NCBI GenBank assembly: GCA_004321925.1
Contig: SCQH01000004.1
Coordinates: 1-53,603 of the forward strand
DNA: 53,603 nt
Direction: 5' to 3'
Source of the DNA: Nitrospirota bacterium
GTDB lineage: Bacteria; Nitrospirota; Thermodesulfovibrionia; Thermodesulfovibrionales; UBA6898
The notes under the pieces are model-generated. The model saw only the letters and a list, made by a program, of their open reading frames with translations. It did not search any database and was not told the origin of the DNA. Positions 1,877 to 13,232 of this stretch are shown one piece after another. A program made the position numbers and the translations under genes. Every line of letters starts with the position of its first letter. The stretch's first letter is position 1.

Positions 1877-1958
1877 ACATTTCAATGATACCAGATCCAT
1901 GATCATTCCTGAGTATAAATTTATGGTTATAATAATGTCATATTATTATAACTTGACG

Positions 1959-1988
1959 TTGACGGGTCGAGGGGGGTAACTGTTACTG
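1959..1988 (+). promoter_or_regulatory. Putative promoter of the first riboswitch-controlled unit
   Basis: GACGTTGACGG, containing a TTGACG -35-like hexamer at 1959-1964, is shared with the other riboswitch-bearing unit (11995-12005). In both cases it lies about 38-40 bases before the start of the aptamer. The -10 here (around 1982-1988, GTTACTG) is poor, so the exact element is uncertain. Transcription would begin just upstream of the aptamer's closing stem. Confidence 0.4.
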
Positions 1989-2003
1989 TTAGTCATACAT
2001 AAC

Positions 2004-2085
2004 GATCCGCCGAAACTAATCCCATCGACAGGAGGGGACGGAAAGCGGCGGGCACTGGGGAAGATGGCCGAGCTAGCGTAGGATC
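2004..2085 (+). ncRNA. GEMM-I family cyclic-dinucleotide riboswitch, first copy
   Basis: The core GGGGACGGAAAGC followed by CGGGC and GATGGCCGAGCT fits the GEMM-I aptamer, closest to the Geobacter-type GEMM-Ib variant that has CGGAAAGC where classical c-di-GMP aptamers have CGCAAAGC. A closing stem GATCC (2004-2008)/GGATC (2081-2085) brackets it, and CCCATC/GGAGGG closes around a GACA loop. By alignment to remembered aptamers, the ligand-selecting base before CTAATCC is A, as in 3',3'-cGAMP-preferring versions. The segment after GAGCT departs from the usual GCCGA, so it may be degenerate. It overlaps a terminator and lies 56 bases before the Tat-exported binding-protein gene. Confidence 0.6.
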
Positions 2086-2114
2086 AGACATCCTCGCGTG
2101 TATTCGGCCTTTTT
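2066..2114 (+). terminator. Riboswitch-linked intrinsic terminator
   Basis: GGCCGA (2066-2071) pairs with TCGGCC (2104-2109), with an inner AGGAT/ATCCT stem (2080-2084/2090-2094) and five T residues after it. The 5' arm lies inside the aptamer, so aptamer folding and terminator folding exclude each other. This predicts that ligand binding turns transcription on. Confidence 0.65.
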
Positions 2115-2141: not shown

Positions 2142-3188
2142 ATGGGGGATCAAAAGACTCATGGCTGGAGCAGGCGGGAATTTCTTGGAGGGCTTGCGCT
2201 TGCCGGTACGGCCGCCGCTCTCGGCTTGCAGCCGGGACTTGGTATGGCAGCGGTGGAACCACCACCTGAAACAAAAACAGTACGGCTGCGGTATTGGGAC
2301 CCGGCATGCTGGGCTCCGTTCTATCTGGCTGAACCGTTCCTGCGTGAAGAGGGCTTCACGGATATTCGTTACGTGGCGGTGCCGACGAACGAACTTCCTG
2401 ATGCGTACAAGAAGAATCTTATAGACCTGAGCTGCGGTTTTTCTGTAGTGGATATGTATCATCTAGAGAAGGAAAATTCCCCCCATAAATTCCTTTCAGG
2501 GTTCCATGTGGGGTGCTATGCGCTGATCGGGAGCGACCGGGTGCGTTCGGTCCGTGACCTCAAGGGAAAGACCGTCTGGGCGGGAACGCTTGAGTATGGA
2601 GGTCCGCATCTCTTTTTCTCCGCTATCGTGGCCTATGTGGGTCTTGATCCGCGCAAGGACATCAAATACGTTTGGGTGAAGAAGGATGAGGCACTGGGTC
2701 TGTTCAACGAAGGAAAGATCGATGCCTTCATGTCCTTCCCCCCCGGTCCTCAGGAGCTTATGGCAAAAGGCATCGGCCGTCTCCTGGTCGACACCAACGT
2801 TGACAAACCGTGGTCTCAGTACTTCTGCTGCATGATGGGCGGACATAGTGATTATGTGAAGAACTATCCGATCGCCACAAAACGGGCCGTTCGGGCCATT
2901 CTGAAGGCAATAGATCTGGTTTCCCGTGAACCTGCAACGGCTGCGCGCGAGCTGCTGGCGAGAAAGATCGTGAAACAGAAGGATGAGAAGTATATTATTC
3001 AGGCGCTCAAGGAGATCCCCTATGGCCGGTGGAGGGAATATAATCCCGAAGACACGATCCGGTTTTATGCCCTGCGCATGCGGGATACCGGGCTGCTGAA
3101 GACCAATCCCCAGCAGTTCATCGACCAGCATACTGACTGGCGCTTTATCAGGGAGTTGAAAAAGGAATTCAAGATAACCGCGTGGTAA
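2142..3188 (+). CDS. Tat-exported NMT1/SsuA-like periplasmic binding protein
   Basis: A 348-residue protein with a twin-arginine signal (SRREFLGGLALAG, about residues 10-22), then the two-lobed fold of the NMT1/THI5-like and SsuA/TauA binding proteins: RLRYWDPACWAPFYLAEPF near the first lobe, VRSVRDLKGKTVW, and NEGKIDAFMSFPPGPQEL. Family members bind nitrate, sulfonates, pyrimidine precursors or similar small molecules for ABC import. No ABC permease or ATPase gene is near; the next gene is a membrane histidine kinase, so a sensory role is plausible. Tat rather than Sec export implies folding before transport. AAGGAGG lies upstream of the ATG, and a GEMM-type riboswitch with terminator controls the leader. 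Confidence 0.85.
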   Translation: MGDQKTHGWSRREFLGGLALAGTAAALGLQPGLGMAAVEPPPETKTVRLRYWDPACWAPFYLAEPFLREEGFTDIRYVAVPTNELPDAYKKNLIDLSCGFSVVDMYHLEKENSPHKFLSGFHVGCYALIGSDRVRSVRDLKGKTVWAGTLEYGGPHLFFSAIVAYVGLDPRKDIKYVWVKKDEALGLFNEGKIDAFMSFPPGPQELMAKGIGRLLVDTNVDKPWSQYFCCMMGGHSDYVKNYPIATKRAVRAILKAIDLVSREPATAARELLARKIVKQKDEKYIIQALKEIPYGRWREYNPEDTIRFYALRMRDTGLLKTNPQQFIDQHTDWRFIRELKKEFKITAW

Positions 3189-3233: not shown

Positions 3234-4745
3234 ATGAAGGTTTGGCTGCCCCGGCTTGTGGCAAGAGCGCCGTTCACGGTCCATACCAAGCTGATCGGGG
3301 CCTTCTTCGTCATCGTGGCGCTGCTGATCATTTTCGGCATCGTCGTCCTTCAGGTCCTGGGCGGTGTTAACCGCCGTTCCGAGGACGTCGCCAAGCTCCG
3401 GCGCAAGGTTGCCGCGTACCGTCAGCTCCAGCACAATACGACCACCCAGCTCTACAGCATCACCAGCGCGCTCCTGTCTCCGGAGGACCGGATGCTTGAA
3501 AGCGCCCTCCGTCAGCTGCATGAGTTCAGGTACGACCTTGAGCGGCTTCAGTTCGTCACAAAGGACGAGGAGGAGCTTTATGCCAAGATCGGCAAAGAGC
3601 ACGAGCAATTGGTCGGGGTGATAACGGAGATCGTGGAACTTACCCGGAAACGTGAATTCGTCAAGGCACGGGAGCTCCGGATGTCCAGGACTACCCCGCT
3701 GGCAGACAGTCTCGAACGGCTCACCAATGAGATGGTCAACAGGGCCGAGGCCGCCATGGAGACAAAGATCGACGAGAGCAATCATGCATATGTGACATCC
3801 CGGTGGGTGGTCATCGGCTTTGCTGTCGGGAGCATCGGCCTGGCGGTCCTGCTGGGGTATGCGGTCTCTTCCTCGCTGATGGGGCCGGTCATGCTCATGG
3901 ATGAGCGGCTCAGGCAGATCGCCTCGGGCGATTTTTCCAAAAGTGTCGAGGTGCCGAACCGCGACGAACTCGGAACCCTGGCCGATAACCTCAACCGCAT
4001 GAATACCGAGTTAAGGAACCTGTATCAACAGCTCGAGGCTGCCAGCCGCCACAAGTCCGAGTTCCTTGCCAGTGCGAGCCACGAGTTGCGTACGCCTCTG
4101 AATGCCATCATCGGGTTTTCAGGGATACTGAAGAAACGCATGTTCGGTGAGCTGAATGAAAAGCAGGCTGAATATGTCGAAGATATCTACACCTCCGGCA
4201 ACCATCTCCTGTCCCTTATCAATGACCTTCTGGACCTCGCCAAGGTCGAGTCGGGCCGCATCGAACTTGAAGTAAAACAGTTCGACCTGCCGACCGCTCT
4301 GGAGAATTCCATCACACTGTTAAAAGAGCGCGCCAATCGCCATGGGATTTCCATTGACCTTGCCGTTGACGAGAGACTGAGTTCCTTCATGGGAGATGAG
4401 CGCAAGCTCAAGCAGATCATGCTCAACCTGCTCTCCAATGCGGTTAAATTTACTCCGGACGGCGGCCGGATCACGGTGAAGGCAGGCCCTCTTGACGGCG
4501 GAGTGCAGATATCCGTGAGCGACACCGGCGTAGGGATCAAGCCCGAGGACCAGCAGGTCATCTTCGAGGAGTTCCGCCAGGTGGGCGATGATTCACATAA
4601 ACGTGAAGGCACGGGACTCGGCCTTACGCTGACCAAGACACTCATTGAACTGCACGGGGGCAGGATACGGGTGGAGAGCGAAGAAGGAAAGGGTTCGACC
4701 TTTACCTTTACCCTGTCGGAGGTACCATCATGCCGCGAAAGCTGA
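3234..4745 (+). CDS. Membrane sensor histidine kinase with HAMP domain
   Basis: 503 residues. A membrane segment at about 17-43 (LIGAFFVIVALLIIFGIVV), a mostly helical periplasmic region of about 140 residues, and a second membrane segment near 188-212 are followed by HAMP, HisKA and HATPase_c. The H-box is SASHELRTPLNAIIGF; the ATP-binding N, G1 and G2 boxes read NLLSNAVKFT, DTGVG and GTGLGL. The helical input region lacks a recognisable ligand-binding fold, which suits coupling to the upstream binding protein (inference). Its 3' end overlaps the receiver gene by 16 bases. The kinase core is almost identical to that of the kinase at 8353, showing a recent duplication. Confidence 0.92.
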   Translation: MKVWLPRLVARAPFTVHTKLIGAFFVIVALLIIFGIVVLQVLGGVNRRSEDVAKLRRKVAAYRQLQHNTTTQLYSITSALLSPEDRMLESALRQLHEFRYDLERLQFVTKDEEELYAKIGKEHEQLVGVITEIVELTRKREFVKARELRMSRTTPLADSLERLTNEMVNRAEAAMETKIDESNHAYVTSRWVVIGFAVGSIGLAVLLGYAVSSSLMGPVMLMDERLRQIASGDFSKSVEVPNRDELGTLADNLNRMNTELRNLYQQLEAASRHKSEFLASASHELRTPLNAIIGFSGILKKRMFGELNEKQAEYVEDIYTSGNHLLSLINDLLDLAKVESGRIELEVKQFDLPTALENSITLLKERANRHGISIDLAVDERLSSFMGDERKLKQIMLNLLSNAVKFTPDGGRITVKAGPLDGGVQISVSDTGVGIKPEDQQVIFEEFRQVGDDSHKREGTGLGLTLTKTLIELHGGRIRVESEEGKGSTFTFTLSEVPSCRES

Positions 4746-5122
4746 TCCTCGTTATCGAGGATAATGAGAAGAACATGAAGCTGGTGCGGGACCTGCTTCA
4801 GTATGAAGGCTATGAGTTCCTGGGCACCGATACTGCCGAAGAAGGTCTTCGTTTGGCCGGCGAAAATCTTCCCGCCCTCATTTTGATGGACATCGGGCTT
4901 CCGGGAATGAGTGGATTTGAGGCGCTTAAACATCTCAGGGCTGCTCCTGCTACGGCTGGCATTCCTGTGATCGCGGTTACCGCTTCGGTCATGACCCAGG
5001 ACCACCAGAAGATCACCGAAGCGGGTTTTGACGGCTACCAAAGGAAGCCTATTGACATTGATGAGTTTCTCGAAGCAGTGCGCAGTACCCTTGAGCACGG
5101 GGGTAAAAGGAGTGCCGAATGA
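4730..5122 (+). CDS. Single-domain response regulator, DivK-like
   Basis: 130 residues forming one receiver domain and no output domain. The acidic pair is in ILVIEDNEKN, the phospho-accepting Asp in LILMDIGLPGMSG, the switch Thr in IAVTAS and the conserved Lys in YQRKPID. It resembles the DivK-type receivers that commonly follow hybrid-like kinases with a SASHELRTP H-box. It overlaps the kinase by 16 bases and the cyclase gene by 4 bases, so the three are translationally linked. Likely it receives phosphate from the adjacent kinase; its downstream partner is unknown. Confidence 0.9.
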   Translation: MPRKLILVIEDNEKNMKLVRDLLQYEGYEFLGTDTAEEGLRLAGENLPALILMDIGLPGMSGFEALKHLRAAPATAGIPVIAVTASVMTQDHQKITEAGFDGYQRKPIDIDEFLEAVRSTLEHGGKRSAE

Positions 5123-6234
5123 ATGATCCCGCAAGGATCCTGGTAGTTGACGATACACCTGCGAACGTAAAGCTGCTTTCCGATCTGCTTACATACAAAG
5201 GCTATGAGGTTGTGACGGCTGCATCAGGGACCGAAGCATTGGAAAAGGTGGAGACCGGACAGCTCGATCTCGTCCTGCTCGACATCCTTATGCCCGGGAT
5301 GAATGGATACGAGGTCTGCCGTACCATCCGCAAAAACCCTGCCACGGAGATCCTGCCGGTAGTGCTGGTGACATCTCTTGACCCGGCCGAGGAACGGATG
5401 AACGGTCTGCAGGCGGGTGCCGACGATTTCCTCTCCAAGCCTGTTGACGAACAGGAATTGCTGGTACGTGTGCGGTCGCTGCTGAGGATCAAGGAGCTTT
5501 ATGATACGGTTCAGGTCCAGTCAGCCCAGCTTGCCGAGTGCAACAAGACCCTGGAACAGCGCGTACATGATCAGGTGGATCAGCTTGAGCGCCTGGGACG
5601 GTTGAAACGCTTTTTCTCCCCGCAACTGGCCGAGCTTATCATTTCAGGTGGGGCAGATGATCCCCTGAAGGCACATCGGAGAGAAGTGACGGTTGTCTTT
5701 CTGGACCTGCGCGGGTTTACCGCCTTCACTGAGGTGTCCGAGCCCGAGGAGGTGATCTCCGTGCTCAACGAGTACCATGTCGAGATGTCCAAGCTCATCC
5801 TTGAATATGAGGGTACTCTGGAGCACTTTGCCGGAGACGGTATGATGATAATCTTTAACGACCCTGTGCTCCTGCCAAATCCGACTGAGCGTGCGGTCCG
5901 GATGGCTTCAGCCATGCGCAAGCGCATCATAGAAGTGAAAGATAAATGGCAAAAGAGCGGTCACAGTCTCGACTGCGGTTTTGGGATCGCTCACGGCTAT
6001 GCTACTATCGGAGCGATCGGCTTTGAAGGCCGCAAGGATTACTGTGTCATCGGCTCTGTAGCAAATATGGCGGCCCGTCTCTGCGCCGAGGCCAAAGGCG
6101 GACAGGTCCTTATCAATCAAAAGACACTGAGTAAGGTCGAAGAGATAGTCGAAACAGAATCCCTGGATCAATTGTCCCTTAAAGGGTTTTCCAAGCCCGT
6201 TGCCGCGTTCAATATTATCAAGGTCAAGGATTAG
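5119..6234 (+). CDS. Receiver-class III nucleotidyl cyclase
   Basis: 371 residues: receiver domain (1-120, phospho-Asp in LVLLDILMPGMNGYE), a coiled coil (about 125-165) and a class III cyclase domain. Both metal-binding Asp are present (VVFLDLRGFT and HFAGDGMMIIF), and the transition-state Asn/Arg pair is kept in ANMAARL. The positions that usually choose the purine are unusual: His replaces the Lys four residues before the second metal Asp, and Cys occupies the Asp/Thr position (DYCVIGS). The product could be cAMP or another cyclic nucleotide. Phosphorylation by the neighbouring kinase probably controls it. A Crp/Fnr-type protein sits downstream as a possible receptor. Confidence 0.9.
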   Translation: MNDPARILVVDDTPANVKLLSDLLTYKGYEVVTAASGTEALEKVETGQLDLVLLDILMPGMNGYEVCRTIRKNPATEILPVVLVTSLDPAEERMNGLQAGADDFLSKPVDEQELLVRVRSLLRIKELYDTVQVQSAQLAECNKTLEQRVHDQVDQLERLGRLKRFFSPQLAELIISGGADDPLKAHRREVTVVFLDLRGFTAFTEVSEPEEVISVLNEYHVEMSKLILEYEGTLEHFAGDGMMIIFNDPVLLPNPTERAVRMASAMRKRIIEVKDKWQKSGHSLDCGFGIAHGYATIGAIGFEGRKDYCVIGSVANMAARLCAEAKGGQVLINQKTLSKVEEIVETESLDQLSLKGFSKPVAAFNIIKVKD

Positions 6235-10285: not shown

Positions 10286-10993
10286 TTGACAATGCATCAC
10301 TCAAATGACGAGAGGGAATTAGTAGAAAAGTTTGTTCGCAGAGTAATTTTGTTCAGGGGCATTACTGAGAAGTATTTGAAACAGATCGTTGATGATTTCA
10401 GCATTCTTCATGCAACAAAGAATGAGGTCATCATAGTGCAGGAAGATACAAGTACAGACCTCTACATAATTCTCAGGGGTAAAGTTAAAGTGACCCTTAT
10501 GAGTGTGGAAGGAGAAGAGTACATCCTGACAGATCTGCAGACGGGTGATTGTTTCGGCGAGATGAGCCTTATCGATGGGAAGCCCCGTTGTGCGACAGTA
10601 GTTGCCGCGGAGGACTCGACATTTGCCGTGCTCAAGCGGGAAAGACTGATCGAAGCGTTACAACAAGACCCCATACTTGCACTTGATCTGCTCGCAACCC
10701 TCGTCCATAAGCTGAGAAAGGCCACTGAACGGGAGGAAGGCCTTGCATTTCTCGATGTACGCGAACGTGTGTTGAAACTGTTCGGAGAACTGATGCGGGA
10801 AGAGGGCAAGAGGGAAGAAGACGGTTTTTACAGGATAGGCAAGCGCACCCAGAAGGAACTGGCCATAAGAATAGGCGCTTCACGAGAGGCGACCTCGCAG
10901 GTCCTCAGGGCCCTGGCTTCAGAAAAGATTCTCTTGGAAAAAGACATTTATTTTCTGATATCACCTTCCGTATGCAGAGAAGACTCTGAGTAA
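10286..10993 (+). CDS. Crp/Fnr family transcription regulator
   Basis: About 235 residues. The N-terminal cyclic-nucleotide-binding fold (about 25-140) shows DLYIILRGKVKVTL, GDCFGEMSLIDGKPR (the phosphate-binding cassette, with an Arg near the end) and ATVVAAEDSTF; a long dimer helix and a winged helix follow, with the recognition region IGASREATSQVLRAL. No Fnr-type cysteine cluster is visible, so cNMP binding is more likely than iron-sulfur sensing. TTG at 10286 has AAGGAA at 10275-10280; ATG at 10292 is an alternative. It may read the product of the cyclase at 5119 (inference). Confidence 0.88.
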   Translation: MTMHHSNDERELVEKFVRRVILFRGITEKYLKQIVDDFSILHATKNEVIIVQEDTSTDLYIILRGKVKVTLMSVEGEEYILTDLQTGDCFGEMSLIDGKPRCATVVAAEDSTFAVLKRERLIEALQQDPILALDLLATLVHKLRKATEREEGLAFLDVRERVLKLFGELMREEGKREEDGFYRIGKRTQKELAIRIGASREATSQVLRALASEKILLEKDIYFLISPSVCREDSE

Positions 10994-11997: not shown

Positions 11998-12026
11998 TTG
12001 ACGGTTCCGGACTTATCTGGCATAGT
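11998..12026 (+). promoter_or_regulatory. Putative promoter of the second riboswitch-controlled unit
   Basis: TTGACG at 11998-12003 and CATAGT at 12021-12026 are separated by 17 bases, a reasonable sigma-70-type promoter. The -35 area (GACGTTGACGG) is repeated ahead of the first riboswitch at the same distance from the aptamer. Transcription would start a few bases before 12043. Confidence 0.5.
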
Positions 12027-12042
12027 GAAGATATAGACAGAC

Positions 12043-12125
12043 GATCCCGACAAAGCCAACCCCTGCGCGACAAGGGGACGGAAAGCAACGGGTCTTAAGG
12101 AAGATGGCCGAGCTGCCGAAGGACA
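12043..12125 (+). ncRNA. GEMM-I family cyclic-dinucleotide riboswitch, second copy
   Basis: The sequence shows CCGACAAAGCCAACCCC, stem CCCCT/AGGGG, core GGGGACGGAAAGC, then CGGGTCTTAAGGAAGATGG (stem TCTT/AAGA) and CCGAGCTGCCGA. This follows the GEMM-I aptamer order and again carries the CGGAAAGC variant of GEMM-Ib aptamers. At the ligand-selecting position the base is G (AAAGCC), as in c-di-GMP-binding aptamers, whereas the first copy has A. The closing stem is weaker than in the first copy. It precedes the Tat-exported metallo-hydrolase gene by about 65 bases. Confidence 0.78.
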
Positions 12126-12188: not shown

Positions 12189-13232
12189 ATGGATGGTGGA
12201 ATGAATCGCAGGGAATTTCTGAAGTATTCAGCGGCAGCGGGTATGCTTTTCGCAGCAGGAGATGGAATACTGGGAGGCATGACAGCGCAGGCTGCAACGG
12301 CTGTCAACGAAGTGGACAAGCTGACGATCTGGATCCTGGCAGACAACTATTACGACACGAATGAACCGGACGCCAAGATCACAAAGCGCTACCGCTCGGT
12401 GGCCGGGAAATCAATTCACGCGCAGCACGGTCTTTCTTATTATATCGAGACGGTCACTGCCGGAAAGACAAGCTCCTGCATGTTCGATTTCGGGCTTGAC
12501 CCTGCGGACGTGATGGGCAATATTGCGCTACTGGGGCTCGATATCGGAAAGACAAACGCCTTCAGTCTGAGCCATGGCCATTACGATCACTATACGGGTG
12601 CACTCAGTATCCTCAGGCAGAACCAGGCGCACATAGCCGCCGGAACGCCGTTTTATGTGGGCGAGGAGGCCTTTTCACGGAGATACACACTGCGCCCCGG
12701 AGCGGCCGCACCGACAGACCTCGGACAACTGAGCAAAGAGGATATCGAAGCCCTTGGCGTGAAGGTGATCGAGGTAAAGACCCCGGTGGAGATCATTCCC
12801 GGCGCGTACCTTTCCGGAAGGATTGAGAGGGTCACGAGCTACGAGAAGATACCTGCGTCTCAGCAGATAAAACGCGGTGAAAAGATCGAATCAGACAATT
12901 TTCAGGGTGAGCAGGCTGTTTTCTTTAACGTAAAAGGAAAGGGGCTGGTCGTTCTTTCCGGCTGCGCGCACTGTGGGATCGTAAATACCATTAAACATGC
13001 GCAAAAGATTGCCGGCACAGACAAAGTTCATGCAGTAATGGGAGGTTTCCATCTTATTGTTGCGAAGCCCGAGCTTATTCAGAGCACCGTTGCCGATATC
13101 AAGGCGATGAAGCCCGACCATATCGTGGGCACCCATTGCACCGGGTTCAGGGCGATGGTGGCTTTAAGCACGGAGATGCCCGAAGCCTTCGTTGTGAATA
13201 CCGCGGGTACCAGGTATACCTTTGGCGCATAG
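12189..13232 (+). CDS. Tat-exported metallo-beta-lactamase-fold hydrolase (COG1237-like)
   Basis: 347 residues. A twin-arginine signal (MNRREFLKYSAAAGMLFAAG) is followed by an MBL domain with SLSHGHYDHYTGAL (HxHxDH metal site), a second-metal His in LSGCAHCGIVNT, GGFHL and a C-terminal GTHCTG. The arrangement recalls the COG1237 group annotated as dihydropterin-ribofuranosylaminobenzene phosphate synthase-like proteins, where the reaction is proven only for an archaeal member. Export to the periplasm makes a pterin-synthesis role unlikely here. ATG at 12189 or at 12201 (MNRREF) are both possible. It is the sole gene behind the second GEMM riboswitch and ends before a strong terminator. Confidence 0.85.
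   Translation: MDGGMNRREFLKYSAAAGMLFAAGDGILGGMTAQAATAVNEVDKLTIWILADNYYDTNEPDAKITKRYRSVAGKSIHAQHGLSYYIETVTAGKTSSCMFDFGLDPADVMGNIALLGLDIGKTNAFSLSHGHYDHYTGALSILRQNQAHIAAGTPFYVGEEAFSRRYTLRPGAAAPTDLGQLSKEDIEALGVKVIEVKTPVEIIPGAYLSGRIERVTSYEKIPASQQIKRGEKIESDNFQGEQAVFFNVKGKGLVVLSGCAHCGIVNTIKHAQKIAGTDKVHAVMGGFHLIVAKPELIQSTVADIKAMKPDHIVGTHCTGFRAMVALSTEMPEAFVVNTAGTRYTFGA

Follow-up and report, generated by a model that had tools for sequence, protein, structure and literature searches.

The leader in front of an NMT1-like binding-protein gene in the window, a 53,603-nucleotide stretch of DNA that forms contig 37 in a genome of 3.2 Mb, is best explained as a GEMM-I leader, perhaps once of the A20 type, in which the aptamer is probably decaying while the terminator persists. 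Judged from its sequence, the leader is more likely a switch on its way to losing the sensor than a cGAMP switch in working order. The closest named carriers of the binding-protein gene are uncultured Nitrospirota/Thermodesulfovibrio-type bacteria.

The GEMM-I-derived aptamer region spans positions 2004–2085 on the forward strand, which also carries the other parts of the leader, the genes of the unit behind it and the sister leader at 12045–12120, with P1 strands GAUCC at 2004–2008 and GGAUC at 2081–2085. With default settings Rfam does not detect the site; its only GEMM-I match across the window lies at 12045–12120. Scoring against RF01051, proposed earlier as a check, gave no match at the gathering threshold for the focal leader; the best Rfam match in a permissive scan of 1900–2160 is to RF03167 (c-di-GMP-I-GGC) at 2006–2081, which scores 23 bits (cut-off 59) and has a genome-wide E-value of 0.006. 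A covariance model (R1) trained on 31 GEMM-I elements from the taxonomic family of the focal genome, with the focal leader excluded, scores the leader at 39.8 bits (E 2.2e-10), and the E-value is 7e-9 when the whole own genome is searched. This score is somewhat generous, since the training set included a sister leader at 12045 with the same promoter and layout. Despite this, descent is not in doubt, and by sequence comparison the focal leader is homologous to GEMM-I. The earlier note, which placed a GEMM-I aptamer before the binding-protein gene, was therefore right about ancestry (R1 39.8 bits), but the site stays below Rfam gathering (23 versus 59 bits).

The leader alignment places a promoter-like element at 1959–1989, with TTGACG at 1959–1964 and TACTGT at 1984–1989. 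Its spacer is 19 nt long, compared with 17 nt in the sister leaders, and for this reason a sigma-70 scan with 16–18 nt spacers did not detect it, while the sister promoter at 11998–12026 was detected. The terminator (2066–2114) consists of a hairpin at 2066–2109 followed by T5 (2110–2114); it folds with −24.4 kcal/mol and is also present in the whole-leader minimum free energy (MFE) structure. Its 5′ arm overlaps the 3′ strand of aptamer P3/P1, with 2066–2074 (the P3 3′ strand) lying within the arm, and by this overlap terminator and aptamer are predicted to be mutually exclusive. The sharing of an arm between terminator and aptamer was thus correctly described before. Since the arm is shared, a working ancestor is correctly inferred to have been an ON switch.

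A survey was performed of the GEMM-I elements reported in 27 family genomes, which were fetched and aligned, yielding 136 distinct elements, one of them from Desulfobacterota (L070). As these reference elements were chosen by Rfam score, canonical forms are favoured and variation is understated. In Vc2 numbering, position 20 is G in 116 elements and A in 19; at position 92, 117 elements have C, 19 have U and none has a purine. A17 and C93 are each found in 133 of 136, a GNRA loop is found in 130, and at least five of the seven lower P3 pairs are formed in all 136. In the focal leader, position 20 is A (2015), the cGAMP-favouring base, in agreement with the earlier alignment, and is followed by C21-G46. 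Both P1b pairs (C21-G46 and U22-G45) are present, A47 is at 2042, and C44, G45/G46 of P1b and A47–A49 are intact within CGGAAAGC (2039–2046). The P2 hairpin (2021–2036) keeps five of six pairs, with one A-A mismatch and the loop GACA instead of GNRA. P3 (2044–2074) retains six of seven pairs in its lower part and is weak in its upper part. Position 17 (2012) is G instead of the near-invariant A. Rfam and R1 both choose a register with A91 (2075), G92 (2076) and C93 (2077), which keeps G14-C93 and puts at position 92, the partner of the guanine in the ligand, a G where all 136 family elements have C or U. Fourteen aptamer features are each present in at least 130 of the 136 elements, and the focal leader lacks three of them (A17, GNRA and C/U92). 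Compared with GEMM-I (RF01051; variants RF03167 and RF03168), it shares the three-helix layout, the P1b pairs, A47–A49, C44, C93 and a terminator with a common 3′ strand, and differs in its RF03167 score, A20, G92, G17 and the GACA loop.

The MFE structure of the focal aptamer (−26.6 kcal/mol) contains a competing 6-bp helix, 2007–2012/2046–2051. The aptamer folds lie 4.5–5.4 kcal/mol above it, with a family median gap of 7.3 by a cruder measure, and these modelled energies are compatible with the aptamer fold. A larger gap of 18.5 kcal/mol, considered as proof of decay, was dropped because it came from forced isolated pairs, sensible pairs giving 4.5–5.4. Inspection also suggested a conserved pairing of the 5′ leader with J2/3, which was rejected because it is the MFE in some leaders only.

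Orthologs of the binding-protein gene occur in seven of the 27 family genomes and in SURF_11 (L067), and their leaders mostly carry the common promoter. These leaders lack two to six of the 14 aptamer features, each a different set. L013 has A20/C92 with changes in P1b, P3, C44, A17 and the loop; P1b, P2 and P3 are broken in L014; L017 has G20/A92 with P1b and P3 broken; L018 has A20/U92 with lower P3 broken; and in L067 the 3′ half and the terminator are missing entirely. The R1 search found no match in the L015 and L016 leaders. Six NMT1 leaders can be aligned; four of them (focal, L013, L018 and L067) have A20, and the five orthologous ones other than the focal leader all have a broken lower P3. 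Among the alignable leaders compared, no ortholog has an intact aptamer, nor does any combine A20/C92 with an undamaged core. The L018 leader (2593–2681, reverse strand) shows A20/A47/U92, the combination of an engineered Vc2 mutant that binds c-di-AMP. Compared with this G20A/C92U mutant (3MUV), the focal leader shares A20 and differs in G92, while L018 carries the combination naturally and lacks lower P3.

The sister leader at 12045–12120 contains an intact GEMM-I aptamer (G20/A47/C92; RF01051, 50 bits) in front of a metallo-beta-lactamase-like (MBL-like) gene (12189–13232). Of the copies of the cassette that precede the MBL-like gene, the one in the window is the only intact one. The corresponding leaders in G014 (L266/L293) and G020 (L267/L290) have lost the 3′ half and the terminator, and in G003 the promoter alone is left. 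G006 has an intact GEMM-I element near the MBL-like gene, but it lies outside the focal/sister promoter family. Among the clear cassette copies, only 12045 has an intact aptamer.

The leader descends from a GEMM-I cassette of promoter, aptamer and overlapping terminator, which in this bacterial family stands in front of genes of two neighbouring kinds: the NMT1-like gene at the head of the kinase/regulator/cyclase unit, and the MBL-like gene. We propose that the ancestor worked as an ON switch in which ligand binding kept the 5′ arm of the terminator within the aptamer; as A20 is present in four of six alignable NMT1 leaders, it may have been of the A20 (cGAMP) type. The present focal aptamer would bind a cyclic dinucleotide too poorly to switch, so that the unit would be mostly attenuated by the terminator or expressed via read-through. 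Several observations speak for decay: the damage differs from one orthologous leader to the next, the 3′ half and the terminator are lost in the L067, G014 and G020 leaders, the focal spacer has drifted to 19 nt, and the remaining terminators are strong (−16 to −32 kcal/mol), their arms changing together. Against it, the focal leader keeps P1b, most of P2, lower P3, A47–A49, C44 and C93, which would exceed the retention of a freely drifting sequence, and a strong terminator would be costly if nothing relieves it. The bias of the reference set to canonical forms and energies that leave the aptamer fold possible also count against decay.

It is rather doubtful that the leader, as a naturally altered GEMM-I derivative whose pocket is A20/G92 or, in a shifted register, A20/C92, still senses cGAMP or some other cyclic dinucleotide and governs the binding-protein/kinase/class III cyclase unit. 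We also regard as unlikely a working 3′,3′-cGAMP ON switch in a shifted register, in which C2077 serves as C92 and cGAMP would hold P3/P1, block the terminator and turn the unit on. In this register A2075 is inserted in J1/3 and P1 consists of C15-G93, G14-U94, a bulge and the perfect 5-bp outer helix GAUCC/GGAUC. It is slightly stabler than the model register (−22.1 versus −21.2 kcal/mol), and both lie above the MFE. Positions 17, 20 and 92 are equated here with A11, A14 and C75 of the Geobacter cGAMP aptamer. As in the Geobacter 3′,3′-cGAMP (GEMM-Ib) riboswitch (4YAZ), the focal leader has A20 followed by C21-G46, A47 and an ON layout with an intact terminator, and its genome encodes a GacA-like Hypr GGDEF protein. 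Some weight on position 20 is fair because A20G turns the cGAMP switch Gmet_0970 into a c-di-GMP switch (PMC6456294). However, the ligand contacts C75 and A11 of the Geobacter aptamer are altered in the model register of the focal leader (PMC6274999, PMC7288161); in simulations, the occupancy of the main C75-ligand hydrogen bonds was 98–99% and that of the A11 bond 91.5% (PMC6274999). C92 is reachable only with the inserted base and a flip of the near-invariant closing pair, and the shifted register stays a rival because this pair must flip. It needs three further departures, namely the closing G-C changed to C-G (C93 in 133/136), a longer J1/3 and A17G; moreover, the GNRA loop is gone and the MFE is the competing helix. 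The ortholog L013 has A20/C92, yet its P1b and P3 are broken. The earlier assignment of a cGAMP-type switch thus retains A20, its single basis, and is opposed by G92 in the model register, G17 and the lack of an intact ortholog aptamer; from the pocket and the orthologs, cGAMP specificity appears less likely than decay. The motif CGGAAAGC had also been read as the GEMM-Ib form. In this lineage it is no GEMM-Ib marker: the P1b CC/GG form that gives it accompanies G20/C92 in 47 of the 136 elements and never occurs in an intact A20/C92 element, and it was ruled out as a marker of cGAMP.

A fixed attenuator, or one that is relieved not by a small molecule but by translation, a protein or temperature, would make the aptamer remnant incidental. 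Terminator arms co-change in terminator-bearing orthologs while aptamer pairing goes, as this explanation expects, but an unsystematic look identified no binding site or leader peptide, and we hold it to be quite unlikely. Least probable is a GEMM-I variant of altered specificity (A20/A47/G92) that still antiterminates with another ligand. A partly kept structural core, a maintained terminator and orthologs that vary at positions 20/92 (A/G, A/U, G/A, A/C and G/C) with terminators kept speak for it; against it, no single altered pocket is common to the orthologs, and the broken lower P3 in five of five other alignable leaders fits decay better.

Beyond the focal leader, 19 intact A20/A47/C92 elements were found in 14 family genomes (including L055, L056, L212, L189, L058, L135, L059 and L150). 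Among the genes behind them are those for multihaem cytochromes (L055, L056 and L212; L189 is partial) and for PilZ proteins; L058 precedes a gene for a phosphonate-type binding protein, and a laminin-G-like protein is encoded behind another element. These 19 elements form a candidate cGAMP regulon that recalls Geobacter, and on sequence grounds the intact A20/C92 elements are better cGAMP candidates than the focal leader. Another 19 elements combine G20 with U92 (including L050, L054, L166, L171, L183 and L220), a natural combination that might recognize guanine and adenine in an orientation opposite to that of A20/C92.

The focal genome contains 25 GGDEF matches. One of them, L240 (own contig 59:64017–64487), has the arrangement GHLVGS...GGDEF, in which a serine, which we take to occupy the place of residue 348 of GacA, replaces the specificity aspartate. 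Its closest solved structure is 6d9m, GmGacA (7.7e-48), and the next is at 1.5e-30. A serine at the specificity site together with GGDEF is the Hypr signature (PMC6456294). A GacA-like Hypr GGDEF protein with this serine is conserved in 23 of the 27 family genomes (L240 and L308–L329), which predicts 3′,3′-cGAMP synthesis in this Nitrospirota-related family. cGAMP signalling is plausible in the lineage, and the focal organism, with its GacA-like Hypr GGDEF protein, may well make cGAMP. L256 is a second candidate Hypr enzyme (GHLAGS...GGDEY), and L258/L259 have GS with GGDD[FY]. A Hypr enzyme was ruled out as proof of a cGAMP switch, as the enzyme-bearing genus genomes G001–G004 have no intact A20 GEMM-I element; its presence is no predictor of an A20 element in the same genome. 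Among the papers searched, none ties GEMM-I to Thermodesulfovibrio, or Hypr and cGAMP to Nitrospirae.

The unit behind the leader agrees with the earlier description of a Tat-exported binding-protein/kinase/cyclase unit. Its first gene, at 2142–3188, encodes an NMT1-like, Tat-type binding protein (MGDQKTHGWSRREFLGG...; PF13379, 1.7e-15), and Pfam further identifies a HAMP histidine kinase at 3234–4745, a response regulator receiver at 4730–5122, and a receiver fused to a class III adenylate/guanylate cyclase domain at 5119–6234 (PF00211, 4.3e-21). In some relatives the unit is syntenic with a CRP-type regulator and the MBL-like gene. The class III cyclase and a CRP-type cyclic-nucleotide-binding regulator (10286–10993) lie in one conserved module, which suggests local cAMP/cGMP signalling. 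One relative in Gammaproteobacteria and one in Desulfobacterota carry the unit or parts of it, with no GEMM-I element directly before it. In two Desulfobacterota the NMT1-like gene is immediately preceded by a conserved leader of another kind (L070:1950–2066, and L071 at the same place); it contains a helix that encloses a hairpin (ACCUC...GGAGACAUCUCC...GAGGU), followed by mention of a terminator, with a z-score of −3.8 and no match in Rfam.

If the focal leader were a changed-pocket derivative after all, it would link cyclic-dinucleotide to cAMP/cGMP signalling. As a decaying element, it shows that a single base, A20, can mislead ligand assignment, and its orthologs let the loss of a riboswitch be followed, through aptamer pairs and the loop in some leaders and through the 3′ half with the terminator in others. 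These Nitrospirota-related bacteria are a lineage with both GacA-like synthases and intact A20/C92 elements before multihaem cytochromes.
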